From an uncultured Prochlorococcus sp. (GTDB taxonomy: Bacteria > Cyanobacteriota > Cyanobacteriia > PCC-6307 > Cyanobiaceae), in contig CACAQP010000004.1 of assembly GCA_902534685.1 (NCBI GenBank), forward strand, positions 1 through 43,108: 43,108 nucleotides of DNA, written 5' to 3'. Position 1 is the first letter of the stretch, and the number at the start of each line of letters is the position of its first letter. Position numbers and translations under genes: made by a program. Below, one piece after another: positions 2,175 to 37,950 of the stretch. The notes below the pieces were generated by a model, which saw nothing but the letters and a program-made list of their open reading frames with translations, was not told the origin of the DNA and did not search any database.

Positions 2175-2519
2175 CTATTTAAGCTTTTTAAGCTTCTTAA
2201 CAAGATTTATTCCAACACCTGATACAGCAAGGAGATCTTTTTCATCAGCCGCAATAACTGCTTTTGTTGTTTTAAATCCTGCCTCATACAAAGCTTTTGC
2301 GCTTTTTGCTCCAACACCTGGAAGTGTGGTTAAGGTTTCAATATTTTTTTTAGAATTAACCGTTTTGGTTTTGGTTTTGGTTTTTGTTTTTGTTTTTGTT
2401 TTTGTTTTTGAAGTTTTTGCAGACTTAGTTGCTTTTTTTTCTTTCTTTAAAGGCGTATCAGCTGATACTGTGCTTTTAGATAGAATTGATTTTAGTTTGC
2501 TTAGAAATTTAGAAATCAT
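2175..2519 (-). CDS. helix-hairpin-helix protein with Lys-Thr repeat linker
   Basis: 114 residues in three parts: a short amphipathic N-terminus (MISKFLSKLKSIL), a highly basic linker at about residues 27-53 including eight consecutive Lys-Thr pairs, and a C-terminal helix-hairpin-helix module with two glycine hairpins (LPGVGAKSA and VSGVGINLV). HhH domains bind the DNA backbone without sequence preference, and the basic linker would add charge attraction. A DNA- or nucleoid-associated role is likely, but no catalytic domain is present. The repeat suggests a linker of variable length. Confidence 0.7.
   Translation of the reverse strand: MISKFLSKLKSILSKSTVSADTPLKKEKKATKSAKTSKTKTKTKTKTKTKTKTVNSKKNIETLTTLPGVGAKSAKALYEAGFKTTKAVIAADEKDLLAVSGVGINLVKKLKKLK
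2362..2409 (-). repeat. hexanucleotide microsatellite, 8 units
   Basis: Eight tandem 6-base units on the plus strand: three of GTTTTG, then five of GTTTTT. They lie inside the helix-hairpin-helix gene and encode eight Lys-Thr pairs. The unit is a multiple of three, so copy-number change would alter protein length without a frameshift. Confidence 0.9.
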
Positions 2520-17424: not shown

Positions 17425-17835
17425 TTATTTATTATCAGAATCAATTTCTACGTCTTTTATTTCATCTTTAACCGTTCTTTTTTTAGGTTTAATTGATTTT
17501 ACTTCTGCCTCTACTATTTCTTCTTTAACATCACCTTCTTTGGGTTCCTCTGATTTTACTTCTGCCTCTACTATTTCCTCTTCAAATTCACTTTCTTCGG
17601 GTTCCTCTGATTTTACTTCTGCCTCTACTATTTCTTCTTTAACTTCACTTTCTTCGGGTTCCTCTGATTTTACTTTTGACTTTGCTATGCTTTGACCTTC
17701 ATCTTTACTTAGAAGGAATTTTAGTAGTTTATTGAATAATAAGAAACCTTTTTCAATTCTTTTTGGACCTAAAATTGAAAGGAAAATTACTAAAATTATG
17801 AATATTTCAGGTGAATTTAAACCTAATAGTTTCAT
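17425..17835 (-). CDS. TatA/TatB-like protein with acidic tandem-repeat tail
   Basis: 136 residues. The first 40 have the TatA/B layout: short N-terminus, one hydrophobic helix beginning SPEIFIILVIFLSILGPK with the Gly-Pro hinge, then an amphipathic helix (FLLFNKLLKFLL). The rest is an acidic tail of three 19-residue repeats (EEPEESEVKEEIVEAEVKS and variants). A role in twin-arginine export or as a membrane-anchored acidic scaffold is possible. The tail is unlike normal TatA/B. Confidence 0.65.
   Translation of the reverse strand: MKLLGLNSPEIFIILVIFLSILGPKRIEKGFLLFNKLLKFLLSKDEGQSIAKSKVKSEEPEESEVKEEIVEAEVKSEEPEESEFEEEIVEAEVKSEEPKEGDVKEEIVEAEVKSIKPKKRTVKDEIKDVEIDSDNK
17495..17665 (-). repeat. 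three tandem 57-bp repeats in coding sequence
   Basis: Three direct repeats (17495-17551, 17552-17608, 17609-17665) followed by a partial fourth, each 19 codons, in the acidic tail of the Tat-like gene. Copies differ at only a few positions, so the array is probably recent or kept alike by recombination. Copy-number change would keep the frame. Confidence 0.9.
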
Positions 17836-31777: not shown

Positions 31778-32563
31778 TTATTTGCGAAGCTTAGGAATCA
31801 AAAGAGATGCAACACAAATAACACTAATTGAAGGGCCAGGCGAAAGATTAAAGATTAATGAGAGAATAAATCCCAGAAGTGAGATGCATAATCCAAAAAA
31901 TGAAGACCTCATCATTGCAATTCTTAAACTATGAGCCTTATTTAGCCCTAACAAAGTTGGAGTAGAAAGAAGAGCAATTACAAGAATTACTCCCACTGCT
32001 GACATTGAACTAACAATTACTAATGCCGTTGTAAAACTCAAAGCAAGATTTAATAAAGAAACGTTTATACCACTTGCGGATGCACCTTCTGGATCTAATC
32101 CAACATAAACAACCTTTTCATATCCAAAAGTCATTAAAATTATAAATACTAAAAATGCAATTATTGTTCTAAGTAAATCTCCAAAATTTGCTGTCAACAA
32201 ATCTCCAAATAATACTGCCTCTAAATCAATCCTTATTCCGAGGAGAGGAATAATAAGGACTCCAAACCCAAGCATTCCAGCAAGAATTGTATTCATAACT
32301 GCTTCATAATTTTCACTTTTTCTATTAGTTAAACTTTCCGCAATTACTGAGCCCAGAAGACCACTTATAACACCACCAATTGAAGGGTGAATTCCAAGCG
32401 CTAATGCGAGAGCAAGTCCAGGCAAAACACAATGAGAGATTAAATTTACTTGTAATAATCTCTTATGGGTAATTAATACAGTTCCCATAGCTGGGCATAA
32501 GATCCCGGAAAATATAGTTATTATTAATGGAACCAACCACCAGTTGTTATTAATAAAAGACAT
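31778..32563 (-). CDS. znuB: zinc ABC transporter permease ZnuB
   Basis: 261 residues, about eight hydrophobic segments, matching the ABC-3 permeases for zinc/manganese. The glycine-rich ISGLLGSVIAES and the SHCVLPGLALALALG region are the family's coupling segments. It forms the membrane channel with ZnuC and receives zinc from ZnuA. It is separated from znuC by the divergent zur gene, and only 56 bases (or 17 with the longer zur) lie between its start and zur. Confidence 0.9.
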   Translation of the reverse strand: MSFINNNWWLVPLIITIFSGILCPAMGTVLITHKRLLQVNLISHCVLPGLALALALGIHPSIGGVISGLLGSVIAESLTNRKSENYEAVMNTILAGMLGFGVLIIPLLGIRIDLEAVLFGDLLTANFGDLLRTIIAFLVFIILMTFGYEKVVYVGLDPEGASASGINVSLLNLALSFTTALVIVSSMSAVGVILVIALLSTPTLLGLNKAHSLRIAMMRSSFFGLCISLLGFILSLIFNLSPGPSISVICVASLLIPKLRK

Positions 32564-32619
32564 TATTCAAAAGATTCGGTATGATCAAAAATACGAGACA
32601 AAAAAAGATTTTGGAAACA

Positions 32620-33015
32620 ATGGTAACTAAGTCTGACATTACCAAAAGACAAGAACAACTTCTTGAAGAACTTAATAAATGCGAGGATGAATTGAGCGGT
32701 CAAGAATTGCATAGGCAGTTGATCACAAAAGGCAAATCTATGGGGTTGACCACTGTTTATAGAAATCTGCAAATCTTGATAAAGCATGGATTAATTCGTT
32801 CCAGACATCTCCCAACAGGAGAGGTTCTTTACACTCCCGTAGACAGAGATATTCATCATTTGACCTGCGTTCAATGCGGAGAGACGTCGAAAATGGAAGG
32901 TTGTCCTGTTAAAAATATTCATGCCCCTAAAAAAAATCCAAGAAAGTTTCAACTTTTGTTTCATACACTCGAATATTTCGGCCTTTGCCAAAACTGTTAT
33001 CAAGCTCAAAATTAA
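32620..33015 (+). CDS. zur: zinc-uptake regulator Zur (Fur family)
   Basis: 131 residues from ATG 32620; a start at 32581 would add 13 residues but leave 17 bases for both promoters. The winged-helix (TKRQEQLLEELNKCEDELSGQELHRQLITKGK, then GLTTVYRNLQIL) and the dimerisation domain with CVQC and CQNC zinc-binding pairs are typical of Fur-family proteins. Context (znuB, znuC, znuA) makes Zur the best reading. It is encoded on the opposite strand between znuB and znuC. Confidence 0.85.
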   Translation: MVTKSDITKRQEQLLEELNKCEDELSGQELHRQLITKGKSMGLTTVYRNLQILIKHGLIRSRHLPTGEVLYTPVDRDIHHLTCVQCGETSKMEGCPVKNIHAPKKNPRKFQLLFHTLEYFGLCQNCYQAQN

Positions 33016-33028
33016 AAAGGAACATTTT

Positions 33029-33799
33029 TTAATCACAGAAATTATTTTCCTTTATAGAGTTTATGTTTATCGCATCTAATTTATCTTTTATTTGATCAGG
33101 ACTACCAACTGCTAAAACCCTTTTATCAAGAACTATTACTTGATCATAATTATTTAGAGACTCGCCCCAATCATGGCTACTTACGAGTAAAGAAAGTCCC
33201 GCATCTGCTAGTTGACGAACAATTTTCAGGAAGTCCTCTTTTGCGGGGGGATCCAATGCCGCACAAGGTTCATCCAGAAGAAATATTTTTGCAGGGGACA
33301 TAAGAGTTTTTGCTAATAGAGCTCTTTGTTGCTGTCCTCCTGAAAGAGAATCGAGTCTTCTATTAGCCAAATTAGCAATTCCTACTCTTTGCATTGTCGC
33401 TTCTAATTCACAACATTTATTAATCCAAGAATTAGGATATTCTAGAAGAGCCTTGATTTGAAAGGGGTTATTACTTCTTGATTTTGAATACTTTATTTGA
33501 CCAAGAGATACCAATTTTTCAACTGTAATGGGAAACTTCCAATTCATAGAACTTCTTTGAGGCATAAGTGCCACTAAAGCTCTAGATCTATATAAATTTT
33601 CACCGTCAATTTTTATATCGCCTTTATCTGGAGTATTTTGTCCTTGCAATACCCTCAAAAGAGTGGATTTACCGGCACCATTTGGACCCACTAGCGCTGT
33701 TAGAGTTCCAGGTTTAATCTCAACCGATACCTTATTTAAAGCTGGCTTACTTTTTTTTGTGTATGCAAATGTTAAATTTTCAGCGACTAAAGTAGCCAT
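33029..33799 (-). CDS. znuC: zinc ABC transporter ATPase ZnuC
   Basis: 256 residues. Walker A GPNGAGKST (38-46), signature LSGGQQQR and Walker B IFLLDEP are all present, and the order and length match metal-uptake ATPases. It powers import through ZnuB. The gene points away from znuA, with 138 bases between their starts containing a Zur-type palindrome and a second inverted repeat. Confidence 0.9.
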   Translation of the reverse strand: MATLVAENLTFAYTKKSKPALNKVSVEIKPGTLTALVGPNGAGKSTLLRVLQGQNTPDKGDIKIDGENLYRSRALVALMPQRSSMNWKFPITVEKLVSLGQIKYSKSRSNNPFQIKALLEYPNSWINKCCELEATMQRVGIANLANRRLDSLSGGQQQRALLAKTLMSPAKIFLLDEPCAALDPPAKEDFLKIVRQLADAGLSLLVSSHDWGESLNNYDQVIVLDKRVLAVGSPDQIKDKLDAININSIKENNFCD

Positions 33800-33862: not shown

Positions 33863-33898
33863 TTCATAACATTTGATACCTTTTCTTGTCAGATGGAA

Positions 33899-33913
33899 TG
33901 AAAATGATTATCA
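33899..33913 (+). promoter_or_regulatory. Zur box for znuA
   Basis: TGAAAATGATTATCA fits TGANAATNATTNTCA, the cyanobacterial Zur-box pattern, and is part of a perfect 17-bp palindrome at 33901-33917 (AAAATGAT-T-ATCATTTT). It lies 24 bases before the znuA ATG, so bound repressor would block the promoter. Confidence 0.7.
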
Positions 33914-33937
33914 TTTTTAAGTATTTAATAACTTTCT

Positions 33938-35455
33938 ATGTCAATTTTTAAAAGACTTTTATCAAATAAAAAAGGTTCAAGTAAGTCAATTATTAAAAAT
34001 TCCGTAATCGCTGGAACGATTATATTTTCTAGTTTTGGGCAGGTTGTCATGGCTAAAGGAAAGTCATACGTTGCAGTTGAACCACTAGTTTGTGATTTAG
34101 TTAAATCAATTGCATTACCATCTGACGAAGTTACATGCCTAGTAGATAGAAAACAGGATGTTCATGATTTAAAGATCAATCCAAGACAAGCTCAATTACT
34201 AAATAGCGCAGACAAAGTATTCACTCTTGGCAAAGAAATGACTCCAAGTATGAGAAATTGGGAAAGTAAAAAGAATACTGTTGTTGTAGGTGTTAGTGCA
34301 ATAGACGTAGATGATCATTCTGATCATGAAGGTCACGATGACCACTCAGACCATGGTGGACATGATGATCATGCTGAACATTCAGCTAAGGTAGATGATC
34401 ATTCTGATCATGAAGGTCATGATGATCATGCTGAGGGTGCTTTCGAATGGGCAGGTAAATTCCAACTTTCTAAGGGTTCATACAAATGGTCATTTGAAAA
34501 AGTCGATGGAGAATATGCTGATCCAGCAATGAAGATGGTAATTCTCAAGTCTAATGATATAGAAGGATCTGAAGATTTAGCTAAAAAATTATTAGGATCT
34601 AAAGACTCAATAAGCAGAAAAAATAATGGCACTTTGATCGCAAGTAATAAAGCTTTTATTCTTAACTTTGATCAACGAAAAGAAAGCACTGTTTTTAACG
34701 TGGAAATTAATAAAGATGGTGAATATATATTTTTTACTGAACACATGCCTTTTGAGTTTGAAGCAACTCAACACTTCTTTAAAGACGTTTTAAATAGTGA
34801 TGTCGAGCCAATAGCACAAGTACCAGACGAAGGAGAGGGACATCATCACCATCATGACCATGGAGGTCTAGATCCACATGTATGGCATGATCCACATAAC
34901 ATCATAAAAATGGGAGATGTTATAAGCAAAAGTTTAAAAAAAGATATTTCAGTTTTTAATAGAGGGGACAGAAAATTAATTAATGAAAGATTCGAAAAAG
35001 CTGATTCACTCTTAGAAGGCTTAGATAGTTGGATCGTCGAACAAGTAAGCTCTATTCCTGAGGAAAACAGAGTAATTGTTTCTAAACACAAAGCAATGGA
35101 ATACTACGGCGATGCTTTTGGTTTTGAAACTATTAGTTTACTTGACTTTCTTGGAGACTCCTCAAGCTTAAGGCCAGAGAACATAAGTTCTACTTTGAAA
35201 ATGTTAGATGAAGAGAAAGTTCAGGCAATATTTCCTGAACAAATTCCAGCATCTAAGTTATTAAGAAACTTAAGTAGACAAAGTTCGGTTCCTTTAGCTT
35301 CTAATCAAATATTCGTTGATGGATTGATGATGGACGGGAATACGGTTTCAGTATCTGTTCACAACACTTGCACAATTGTTGATTCATTAGGAGGAAGTTG
35401 TGATAAAGAATCTGGCTCCAATCTTGAGTCTGAATGGTACAAACTTTCAGATTAA
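33938..35455 (+). CDS. znuA: zinc-binding protein ZnuA with an inserted FEW-type domain
   Basis: 505 residues, far longer than the usual 300-350. Order: signal peptide (about 1-39), N-terminal ZnuA lobe to about 125 with His76, a His/Asp-rich stretch at 125-165 made of DDHSDHEGHDDH repeats, an inserted domain at about 168-295 beginning FEWAGKFQLSKGSYKW and ending FFTEHMPFEFEA, a second His cluster (HHHHHDHGG, 301-310), then the C-terminal lobe with DPHVWHDP, SKHKAMEYY (His384) and a Cys pair (478, 488). ZnuA captures zinc in the periplasm for ZnuB. The insert is related to a region in the next gene. Confidence 0.92.
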   Translation: MSIFKRLLSNKKGSSKSIIKNSVIAGTIIFSSFGQVVMAKGKSYVAVEPLVCDLVKSIALPSDEVTCLVDRKQDVHDLKINPRQAQLLNSADKVFTLGKEMTPSMRNWESKKNTVVVGVSAIDVDDHSDHEGHDDHSDHGGHDDHAEHSAKVDDHSDHEGHDDHAEGAFEWAGKFQLSKGSYKWSFEKVDGEYADPAMKMVILKSNDIEGSEDLAKKLLGSKDSISRKNNGTLIASNKAFILNFDQRKESTVFNVEINKDGEYIFFTEHMPFEFEATQHFFKDVLNSDVEPIAQVPDEGEGHHHHHDHGGLDPHVWHDPHNIIKMGDVISKSLKKDISVFNRGDRKLINERFEKADSLLEGLDSWIVEQVSSIPEENRVIVSKHKAMEYYGDAFGFETISLLDFLGDSSSLRPENISSTLKMLDEEKVQAIFPEQIPASKLLRNLSRQSSVPLASNQIFVDGLMMDGNTVSVSVHNTCTIVDSLGGSCDKESGSNLESEWYKLSD

Positions 35456-35533
35456 ATTTTTCTAATAAAAACGGTTTTCATTTCTTATTATTACTATTAT
35501 TAAACTATTGTTATTTTTAGTAAAAATCTGTAA

Positions 35534-36889
35534 ATGAGCATCAAAGATAAAGTTCCCGTAACCATCCTCACTGGATTCTTAGGCTCAGGAAAGACTACTT
35601 TGCTTAATAGGATATTAAGTGAAGAGCACGGGAAAAGAATAGCCGTAATTGAGAATGAATACGGTGAAGTAGGTATAGATCAAGGGCTCGTAATTAATGC
35701 CGATGAAGAAGTATTTGAGATGTCAAATGGGTGCATTTGTTGTACTGTTCGCGGTGATCTAATAAGAGTCCTTGGCAACCTTATGAAAAGGAGAGATAAG
35801 TTTGACTATGTTTTAGTAGAAACGACAGGCTTAGCAGATCCTGGGCCAGTTGCTCAGACATTTTTCATGGATGAAGAAATTAGTTCTGAATTTACTCTTG
35901 ATGGAATTGTGACTTTAGTTGATGCTGCACATATTGATCAGCAATTAGGAAGAAGTGATGAAAGTTCAGAACAAGTGGCATTTGCAGATGTTCTTGTCCT
36001 AAATAAAACTGATTTAGTTTCTGATGATGCTCTAGATACTCTTGAATCGAGATTGAGAGATATGAACCGAATGACTCGAATCATTCGAGCCGAGAATGCC
36101 AAAGTACCCATCGAAACAGTCCTAAATCTAAGTGCATTTGATCTCGATCAAATCCTTAAACGCAGACCAACATTTCTTGAACCAGAATATCCTTTTGAAT
36201 GGACAGGTGTTTACGACCTGGCTGCAGGTAAATATGAATTAATGCTAGAAGAAGGTCCCGATCCAGAAATGTCATTAGTAGCTTTCGCTAGTCAAGGTGA
36301 GAGTGAAGAAGAACTTAAAGATGGTGCTGAATCCTCCGTAAGACTTTATGCAGAAAAAGCTAAAAGCTTAGAACCTGGGAATATCATTCCATTTGGAGAA
36401 CATGTAAATCTTAAATTGGATGATAAAGGAAATAAATCATTCATATTAGATATCGAAAAGGGATCAAAGATAGGTTTTTATACACAGCACACTGCTGAAG
36501 AATTCAATATGAAAGTAATTAAAAGTGAAGAAAATAATTCAAAAGAGATTCCATTTAATATTGAAAGATTCTGGCAAGCTGAGCACGAACACGATGATGA
36601 AGTAACGTCAATAGCAATTGAACGATTTGGAGATGTTGATCCAGAAAAACTTAATACTTGGTTGGGCAGACTTCTTTCTGAAAAAGGTGTGGATATATTT
36701 AGAACAAAAGGTTTCATTAGCTACTCAGGAAACCCACAGAGAATAGTTTTCCAAGGGGTACATATGCTATTTACAGCGCAACCTGACAAAGAATGGGGTA
36801 ACGAACCACGTAGAAACCAACTTGTTTTTATAGGTAGGAATTTGGACGAGAAAGAGATGCGAGAAGGTTTTGAAAAATGCCTGATATAG
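35534..36889 (+). CDS. COG0523/CobW-family zinc metallochaperone GTPase
   Basis: 451 residues. Walker A GFLGSGKT (14-21), the metal motif GCICC with Cys67, Cys69 and Cys70, and NKTD (157-160) identify a CobW-type G3E GTPase that delivers zinc to target enzymes. Between the GTPase and the C-terminal CobW domain lies an insert at about 221-330 beginning FEWTGVYDLAAGKYEL and ending GFYTQHTAEEF, recognisably related to the ZnuA insert. A HEHDD cluster follows. The stop overlaps the next gene by 13 bases. Not the cobalamin CobW, given the context. Confidence 0.88.
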   Translation: MSIKDKVPVTILTGFLGSGKTTLLNRILSEEHGKRIAVIENEYGEVGIDQGLVINADEEVFEMSNGCICCTVRGDLIRVLGNLMKRRDKFDYVLVETTGLADPGPVAQTFFMDEEISSEFTLDGIVTLVDAAHIDQQLGRSDESSEQVAFADVLVLNKTDLVSDDALDTLESRLRDMNRMTRIIRAENAKVPIETVLNLSAFDLDQILKRRPTFLEPEYPFEWTGVYDLAAGKYELMLEEGPDPEMSLVAFASQGESEEELKDGAESSVRLYAEKAKSLEPGNIIPFGEHVNLKLDDKGNKSFILDIEKGSKIGFYTQHTAEEFNMKVIKSEENNSKEIPFNIERFWQAEHEHDDEVTSIAIERFGDVDPEKLNTWLGRLLSEKGVDIFRTKGFISYSGNPQRIVFQGVHMLFTAQPDKEWGNEPRRNQLVFIGRNLDEKEMREGFEKCLI

Positions 36890-37950
36890 AATCATTTAGC
36901 CCTAGAGGTATGTTCCATGAAGGATGGACAGCTGAAGTTAACGATTATGCCATAGCATGTGGCTGGGCTCTAAAAGGAAAACAATTTATTGTTGGCGATG
37001 TGGCAGGTGGTATTTTTGCATTCGAAGGAGATACTGGAAAAATTATTTGGGAAAAAGAAAATACTCACTCTGGTGGTCTACTAGCGATGGCCATTCATCC
37101 AGAGGGTGAAATTTTTGCAACATCAGGTCAGGATGGAAATGTTCAAATTTGCAATTGCCACGAAGGTAAAGTTATTAAAACACTTGATCTTGGAAGAGGT
37201 TGGGTAGAACATCTCAAGTGGTCTAATGATGGTTTATTTTTAGCGATAGCTTCCTCAAAAAAAGTATATGTTTTTAATGAAATTGGTGAAGAGAAATGGA
37301 TCTCAGAAGACCATCCAAGCACAGTAAGTGCAATAACATGGTCAAATAAAAATGAGTTAGCAACTGCTTGCTATGGAAGAGTGACATTCTTTGACATAGT
37401 TAATAATAAAACGAATCAAAAACTCGAATGGCAAGGATCATTGGTATCTATGGAATTAAGTCCTGATGGAGATATAGTTGCCTGCGGTAGTCAAGACAAT
37501 TCAGTCCATTTTTGGAGAAGATCCACAGGAATGGATGCAGAGATGACGGGATACCCTGGCAAACCAAGTCACCTTTCTTTTGATGACAGCGGAAAATTAC
37601 TAGCAACTAGTGGCAGTGAAAGAATTACAGTATGGAGCTTTATAGGAAATGGTCCAGAGGGGACTATGCCAGGTGAGCTATGTCACCATACAGAACCTAT
37701 TTCGAGCCTAGCCTTTTCAAATAAAGGTATGCTTGTAGCCTCAGGATCTAGAGATGGTTCTGTTGTCGCAAGTTTCCTAAAAAAAGACGGTAATGGAGAC
37801 CCTGTTGGGGCTGCATTCGCTGGAGATTTAGTAGGGGCAATATCCTGGAGACCTGATGATTGTGCACTTGCAGCAGTTAATGCAAAAGGTGTTGTAAATG
37901 TATGGAAATTTAAAGTTCGTACTAACCTTTTTTCTAAGGGGTTTAAGTAA
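36877..37950 (+). CDS. WD40-repeat protein of the zinc locus
   Basis: 357 residues of WD40-type repeats, about seven blades. Repeated units end in W or F after a strand (HLKWSND, AITWSNK, HFWRRSTG, TVWSFIGNG, NVWKFK) and have GSQD or GSRD turns. No catalytic or membrane part is seen, so it is probably a scaffold. Its start lies in the end of the GTPase gene, so the two are made together, and it may be a partner of the metallochaperone or of its client. Its zinc link is only by context. Confidence 0.85.
   Translation: MPDIESFSPRGMFHEGWTAEVNDYAIACGWALKGKQFIVGDVAGGIFAFEGDTGKIIWEKENTHSGGLLAMAIHPEGEIFATSGQDGNVQICNCHEGKVIKTLDLGRGWVEHLKWSNDGLFLAIASSKKVYVFNEIGEEKWISEDHPSTVSAITWSNKNELATACYGRVTFFDIVNNKTNQKLEWQGSLVSMELSPDGDIVACGSQDNSVHFWRRSTGMDAEMTGYPGKPSHLSFDDSGKLLATSGSERITVWSFIGNGPEGTMPGELCHHTEPISSLAFSNKGMLVASGSRDGSVVASFLKKDGNGDPVGAAFAGDLVGAISWRPDDCALAAVNAKGVVNVWKFKVRTNLFSKGFK

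Follow-up and report, generated by a model that had tools for sequence, protein, structure and literature searches.

In the part of Haas 2009 (PMC2770081) that treats subfamily 5 of the COG0523 GTPases, the prokaryotic members are described as clustering with WD40-repeat genes and znuABC, and several are predicted to lie downstream of Zur sites; that part speaks of a highly variable carboxy-terminal region and of stretches of histidine and mentions no inserted domain. Here we analyze a cluster of this kind in a 43,108-nucleotide stretch of DNA from an uncultured Prochlorococcus sp. (contig CACAQP010000004.1; hereafter the window), in which two neighboring genes, znuA and a COG0523 GTPase gene, encode copies of one homologous domain of about 120 residues. 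The window cluster is like subfamily 5 in its WD40 and znuABC genes and in the CXCC motif and CobW_C domain of its GTPase. Because the subfamily, as treated there, clusters with these same genes, the domain, matched by gene context, appears to mark subfamily 5 or part of it.

Accessory regions have also been described in zinc-binding proteins. In the relevant passages on AdcA of Streptococcus pneumoniae (PMC7858048), losing both accessory regions impairs growth and zinc accumulation under restriction. The window ZnuA is like AdcA, as presented there, in being a ZnuA-type protein that combines an accessory domain with a histidine-rich loop, features that in AdcA aid zinc recruitment in restriction. 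In AdcA, however, the accessory domain is a ZinT fused at the carboxy terminus, whereas in the window ZnuA the domain is inserted in a loop, and none of 33 members of the domain family matches Pfam ZinT at E values up to 1. A propeller protein beside ZnuA-type, Fur and CobW genes is likewise described for AztD, which can hand zinc to a ZnuA-type protein according to the passages concerned in PMC6689063; AztD is exported and acts on AztC, whereas the window WD40 protein has no signal peptide by eye and its neighbor, the GTPase, is taken as cytosolic. ZepA of Anabaena, likened here by its description in part of PMC10957091, is a Zur-controlled exported zinc protein with a beta-sandwich domain, but it is a PEP-CTERM protein with a second domain, and a PEP-CTERM tail is absent by eye from the window ZnuA and GTPase sequences.

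The two host genes, the two copies of the domain and the motifs around them lie in the window as follows:

33938..35455, + strand: znuA, 505 residues, zinc-binding protein of an ABC importer and host of copy 1 (Pfam ZnuA, E 1.3e-42)
34310..34438, + strand: His/Asp-rich tract on the amino-terminal side of the domain in ZnuA, read from the sequence, with 11 His in the 45 residues ahead of the domain
34430..34798, + strand: shared domain, copy 1, ZnuA residues ~165-287, with the conserved E170, W171, G173, D195, H269 and E273
34838..34867, + strand: His-rich tract on the carboxy-terminal side of the domain in ZnuA, directly before the LDPHVW ligand segment (sequence, alignment)
35534..36889, + strand: COG0523/CobW GTPase, 451 residues, host of copy 2 (Pfam cobW 2.3e-61, CobW_C 3.2e-25; PDB YjiA E 2.7e-62)
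35732..35743, + strand: CXCC metal motif (CICC) of the GTPase, read from the sequence
36179..36541, + strand: shared domain, copy 2, GTPase residues ~216-336, in the hinge between the GTPase domain and CobW_C, with E222, W223, G225, D243, H319 and E323

The original prediction held that the two proteins share a unit that opens with FEW-x-G, continues with a G-x-Y strand and a D-P-x-M block and closes with an aromatic-T-x-H motif. These landmarks are present in ZnuA (FEWAG at residues 169-173, GSY, DPAM with D195, FFTEHMPFEF at 265-274) and in the GTPase (FEWTG at 221-225, GKY, DPEM with D243, FYTQHTAEEF at 315-324). Direct BLASTP of the ZnuA segment against the GTPase segment, a single composition-adjusted comparison, gives 28% identity over 113 residues with an E value of 3e-7, and the profile-profile check proposed earlier is highly significant, with a probability of 99.9 and an E value of 1.3e-37 for six non-GTPase copies against 30 GTPase copies. 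When searched against its own genome (918,560 bases in 63 contigs, 55.5% complete), the ZnuA segment matches only itself and the GTPase (E 2e-4). The segments are thus one homologous domain.

Structure prediction, the other check put forward with the prediction, agrees: two confident AlphaFold2 models (pLDDT 89.5 for copy 1, from ZnuA, and 94.7 for copy 2, from the GTPase), compared without superposition, have the same order of elements, namely three strands, one helix and then strands up to the EH-x-x-x-F region. The GTPase model was built from GTPase rows alone, and the ZnuA model from mixed rows that include GTPases, so that, of the two, only the GTPase model was built without input from the other family. 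The domain is predicted to be beta-rich with one helix. SEC14-like protein 3 and supernatant protein factor head the structural-neighbor lists of both models, p24 and GPR180 are in the top ten, and with VIA-align the identical three chains rank first for both models; together these neighbors may point to a GOLD-like sandwich, the matched part of the SEC14-like proteins and supernatant protein factor being, we presume, their GOLD domain. The GOLD domain (p24, SEC14-like proteins, supernatant protein factor) is thus the best-ranked structural neighbor of both models, but the scores are below Z 8 at 7-11% identity (for 4uyb against the two models, Z 4.8, rmsd 3.4 and 88 aligned residues, and Z 6.1, rmsd 3.0 and 89 aligned residues), which may reflect no more than a common beta-sandwich arrangement. 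The many adhesin, virus-capsid and haemagglutinin rows in the structural lists, which define the range of families covered, were taken as such common arrangements.

Known sequence families leave the domain unassigned. Pfam and NCBIfam assign families to the two ends of each host, ZnuA and the GTPase, and to little of what lies between them; for the insert itself there is no convincing match in Pfam (best E 0.01, in one of the 33 members), in NCBIfam (best 0.041) or among PDB sequences (best 0.027, a LysM protein), and none in PHROGs for the two window copies. No member of the 33 matches Pfam GOLD/EMP24 at E values up to 1, and Foldseek against the PDB finds nothing for either model at an E value of 0.001 or below. 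A literature search, whose reach did not extend to a 2021 review of COG0523 and a 2012 survey of cyanobacterial zinc proteins, found no description of the domain. We rate it as an accessory domain of zinc-handling proteins that is new in its family and in occurring on both sides of the membrane.

The domain is inserted at the metal-capture stretch of unrelated metal proteins: in ZnuA it sits within the His-rich loop, and in the WD40-linked COG0523 GTPases it stands where the His-rich linker between the GTPase domain and CobW_C would be. The window ZnuA scores 146.5 bits against Pfam ZnuA (cut-off 29), which places it in the ZnuA/cluster A-I family, and its H76, H314 and H384, presumably the three metal-ligand positions, align with histidines in four further members of the family; its family and a signal-like amino terminus, seen by eye, make export of the protein probable. 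Binding proteins in the PDB align to residues 43-111 and 306-468 and leave 112-305 uncovered, and the insertion occupies the loop before the second metal ligand, where the window copy is flanked by His-rich tracts on both sides; an array of 18-bp repeats at 34310-34381 lies inside the His/Asp-rich tract. In the GTPase, which has the cobW nucleotide-binding domain, CXCC and CobW_C of a COG0523 protein, the insertion fills the hinge (residues 214 to 354 against 214 to 221 of Escherichia coli YjiA) and replaces six YjiA residues. The expectation that usual ZnuA and CobW proteins can do without the unit holds for both hosts, as YjiA aligns without it and ZnuA of another genus of the same family has neither the domain nor the His tract.

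A domain-less paralog in a related genome carries 19 histidines in 30 residues at the GTPase insertion place. At least 12 histidines in some 30 residues are found in 11 of 20 domain-less control GTPases, whereas 129 of 133 domain-bearing GTPases have at most six around the domain and the other four (L169-L172) have 13-16 in a run inside it; the counts cover the whole protein for the controls and the domain with its surroundings for the domain-bearing forms. The controls were chosen regions among the matches, and include one protein without CXCC (L257) and one gene directly following the WD40 gene of a domain GTPase (L256); CXCC is present in all 133 domain-bearing GTPases of 400 residues or more. 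In the distinct ZnuA hosts examined, the tract after the domain is always present (8-11 His in 45 residues), a His-rich stretch amino-terminal of the domain occurs in most but not all, and mean histidine content is 22% before the domain (17 rows), 19% after it (36 rows) and 1.5% elsewhere, figures that come mostly from near-copies and fragments of the window's genus. Small exported hosts and a membrane host have histidines near the domain too. The four GTPases with the internal run are verrucomicrobial, mostly from Opitutae, and in three of them (L169, L170 and L172) a Cys-Gly-x-His-Pro form stands in place of the closing motif.

Six residues are nearly invariant. Among 78 copies (160 were left after dropping those below 105 residues, below 60 bits or with X, and were then thinned by identity), the opening E, W and G and the closing H and E are each kept in 77 and the D of D-P in 76; L169-L172 fell outside this set since their split hits are below the length limit. 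All six are kept in 8/8 ZnuA copies, 3/3 small exported copies and the one membrane-protein copy. A GTPase from a member of the Gemmataceae (L173:1908-3332, genome G360) has E, D, H and E all changed with W and G kept, and is a natural mutant for comparison; its genome holds a further domain GTPase with the usual residues (L089). In L049, W and G are changed and the four are kept. The joint loss in L173 and the W/G change in L049 indicate that the four residues of E/D/H/E vary together, in the manner of a functional set distinct from the fold.

The domain occurs widely but unevenly. As expected for a movable domain, which the original prediction had proposed, its hosts are COG0523 GTPases, ZnuA-type proteins (in the window's family, a verrucomicrobium and haloarchaea), small lipoprotein-like proteins and one polytopic membrane protein. 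Plasmid-borne hosts include haloarchaeal ZnuA-type proteins, three small haloarchaeal proteins with lipoprotein-like starts, the membrane protein of Alicyclobacillus, and Paraburkholderia and Pantoea GTPases; the Alicyclobacillus protein has an HX4DH motif reminiscent of nickel/cobalt transporters, with no Pfam match at E 0.01 and no NCBIfam match at 0.1. On one haloarchaeal plasmid (L005:5461-6776) the domain-bearing binding protein is split into two frames, and the GTPase-WD40 pair on the Pantoea plasmid (L007) is decayed. A genome scan gave at least 522 confirmed stretches; in each of the best 80 loci of these, a GTPase carries the domain at the junction of its GTPase domain with CobW_C, and these loci span Poribacteria, Acidobacteria, Chloroflexi, Planctomycetota, Verrucomicrobia, Actinomycetota, Thaumarchaeota and others, the scan having used a single GTPase-favoring pattern that is uninformative on host shares and several loci being cut by contig ends. 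Of 61 genomes in the window's genus 43 have the domain, among them 19 of the 21 that are near-complete, and in a sample of its phylum it is in 23 of 292 genomes, or 10 of 115 genera (E up to 1e-3). At E up to 1e-4 it is found in 1/200 genomes of Pseudomonadota, 19/251 of Chloroflexota, 6/246 of Actinomycetota and 2/151 of the phylum of a thaumarchaeal genome, each of the samples, that of the window's phylum included, counting the genome it centers on, so that Pseudomonadota contributes none new. Tandem double copies occur in ZnuA of three genomes of the window's genus (G023, at L176:3792-5660, G032 and G221). Viral contigs gave 28 pattern matches and zero confirmed relatives, hence no phage link was seen.

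In a tree of the 78 copies (quick method, 124 columns, many forks open, and one long GTPase row, L202, within the exported group), the window ZnuA copy joins the verrucomicrobial ZnuA copy (96%) and then the haloarchaeal copies (92%), and the window GTPase copy falls among the GTPases. Since each window copy groups with its own host type, both copies are taken as old, and a recent duplication between the adjacent znuA and GTPase genes is unsupported by this tree. In a G-domain tree, also by a quick method, built without reference subfamily 5 sequences and with a long-branch warning among the domain-less rows and on the branch between the sets, a 99% branch separates the 65 domain-bearing GTPases from the domain-less rows. 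A single insertion into GTPases is therefore possible, with the exported forms an old separate line, and separate origins within the GTPases are not needed.

The cluster around the two hosts, znuB (-), zur-like (+), znuC (-), znuA (+), COG0523 GTPase (+) and WD40 (+), contains these further features:

31778..32563, - strand: znuB-like permease, named from content and place; order kept in 7/8 related loci
32581..33015, + strand: Fur-family regulator, probably zur, between znuB and znuC (Pfam FUR 2e-19)
33029..33799, - strand: znuC-like ATPase, named from content and place; order kept in 7/8 related loci
33886..33914, + strand: best promoter-like site of the region, 10/12 consensus match, its second hexamer within the palindrome below
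33901..33917, no strand: perfect 8-1-8 palindrome AAAATGATTATCATTTT, 17 bases, Zur-box-like, between znuC and znuA
36877..37950, + strand: WD40 beta-propeller gene with a 13-base overlap with the GTPase end (Pfam WD40 1.7e-26)

The order znuB-zur-znuC-znuA-GTPase-WD40 is found in 7/8 related loci and the window has the same cluster; the identical palindrome occurs at three of the eight (L259, L260 and L265). The promoter-like sites are consensus matches only, 14 being found against 23.6 in shuffled sequence. In Synechococcus WH8102, the passages of PMC9337993 on this region describe a Zur box in the corresponding intergenic place that overlaps the -10 elements of znuA and znuC, and put the following two genes, synw0972 and synw0973, of unknown function, in the Zur regulon. 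The placing of the + strand zur-like gene between the - strand znuB and znuC (31778-33799) is kept in the same 7/8 loci; a znuC-znuB transcript would therefore run antisense to zur, and derepressed znuCB transcription might act as a damper on zur. Elsewhere in the window, about three 57-base repeats (17494-17675, 92% match) encode acidic 19-residue repeats in a short open reading frame (ORF) at 17425-17835 (-) whose start looks TatA-like by eye, and eight copies of a 6-base repeat (2362-2410) code for a Lys-Thr run in a small ORF at 2175-2519 (-) that looks helix-hairpin-helix-like by eye.

In 55 of the 80 domain GTPase loci the GTPase gene is followed directly, on the same strand, by a WD40 gene; in the others the WD40 gene is elsewhere in the locus (13), has no room (6) or is absent (6), and two extra loci outside these counts (L175 and L176) both have it directly. 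None of the 20 domain-less control GTPases is directly followed by a WD40 gene, and eight plasmid loci with non-GTPase hosts (L003, L004, L005, L008 and L203-L206) show no WD40 hit. A ZnuA-type gene is present in 22/80 loci at E under 1e-5 (the match in L133 is weak), and in one verrucomicrobium (L103) the GTPase, WD40, domain-bearing ZnuA, ZnuC and ZnuB stand in one row. A second, domain-less COG0523 gene lies near the domain GTPase-WD40 pair in L240, L247, L252, L255, L256 and L261, and at L004 and L206, both haloarchaeal, the gene of the domain-bearing binding protein has two domain-less GTPase genes in its vicinity. The suggested link to zinc is borne out by context, through the znuABC/zur neighbors and the Zur-box-like palindrome, yet a haloarchaeal urease-adjacent copy suggests nickel too: on a Natrinema plasmid (L204:5875-6423), a small lipoprotein-like protein that is mostly domain follows a urease operon (beta subunit, ureC, gamma subunit, ureG, ureD, ureE, ureF), and this stand-alone copy hints at nickel.

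We see about an even chance that the domain is an accessory module that recruits or relays metal, a role that its position and conservation would fit better than that of sensor or buffer, which had been suggested before. The near-invariant Glu, Asp, His and Glu (E170, D195, H269 and E273 in ZnuA; E222, D243, H319 and E323 in the GTPase) would form a weak, exchangeable site that catches zinc, and in some hosts perhaps nickel or cobalt. The metal may then be handed on to the tight site of the host, that is, through nearby histidines to the periplasmic His3 site of ZnuA, or to the cytosolic CXCC site of the GTPase. In such a scheme the domain would act like the ZinT and His-rich loop of AdcA, as a different family and by insertion rather than carboxy-terminal fusion, playing the ZinT part in ZnuA and standing in for the His linker in the GTPase, and transcription together with znuA from a Zur-controlled promoter would raise its level in zinc starvation.

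Several observations weigh against this scheme. E/D/H/E is read as a metal site from the residues along the chain; with acids at three of the four positions, such a site may bind weakly, or the set may instead be a feature of the fold or of docking. The closing H-x-P-x-E-F motif is lost in L169, L170 and L172 and hence is dispensable in some copies, its P is replaced by A in the window GTPase copy, and in the verrucomicrobial ZnuA and a tandem-copy ZnuA no His tract precedes the domain (1 and 0 His, respectively, in 45 residues). The adjacency of WD40 genes to domain GTPases (55/80, against 0/20 controls) could instead point to the main rival, a docking domain in which EW, DP, EH and EF make up a protein-binding face and metal is handled by the hosts only. 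Its partner would be the next-door WD40 propeller for the GTPases, and another exported partner or the permease for ZnuA. Propeller folds commonly serve interactions. The zinc transfer from the AztD propeller to a ZnuA-type protein, as related in the passages of PMC6689063 on that step, also speaks for docking. We nevertheless regard docking as unlikely, though a serious contender: cytosolic and exported copies cannot share a partner, yet they conserve the same residues, and the eight plasmid loci with non-GTPase hosts have no WD40 hit. Conservation of E/D/H/E on both sides of the membrane would suggest a ligand common to both settings, for which a metal ion is the simplest candidate, more readily than a common protein partner.

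Its place in a hinge of the GTPase and a loop of ZnuA would also suit a rigid spacer that binds nothing, replaces a floppy linker and keeps the two parts of the host at a distance or screens the metal site. For a spacer, near-invariant polar residues across hosts would be unexpected, as would stand-alone copies and the tandem copies in some ZnuA proteins of the window's genus, and we hold this explanation to be quite improbable. That two unrelated beta-rich segments came to resemble each other by chance or convergence, as a pairwise identity of only 28% might allow, is next to impossible in the face of the E values (3e-7 pairwise, 1.3e-37 profile-profile), the same order of motifs, the same predicted order of elements, and the intermediates in other hosts.

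The domain could, somewhat short of an even chance, be a general-purpose metal-loading domain with an E/D/H/E site that works on either side of the membrane, where, being ordered, it would replace or accompany the disordered His-rich loop. Its hosts would then range from zinc importers and GTP-driven metal chaperones to small exported proteins and a NiCoT-like membrane protein, in bacteria and archaea, a breadth that we put forward just as tentatively. Prochlorococcus lives at very low zinc, and under such conditions His-rich loops are the usual guess for how COG0523 chaperones and zinc importers catch their metal. An ordered domain in the same place of both hosts offers a testable handle on this step, being small and conserved and having named residues, and it would provide a domain name for a part of many annotated proteins that now has none.

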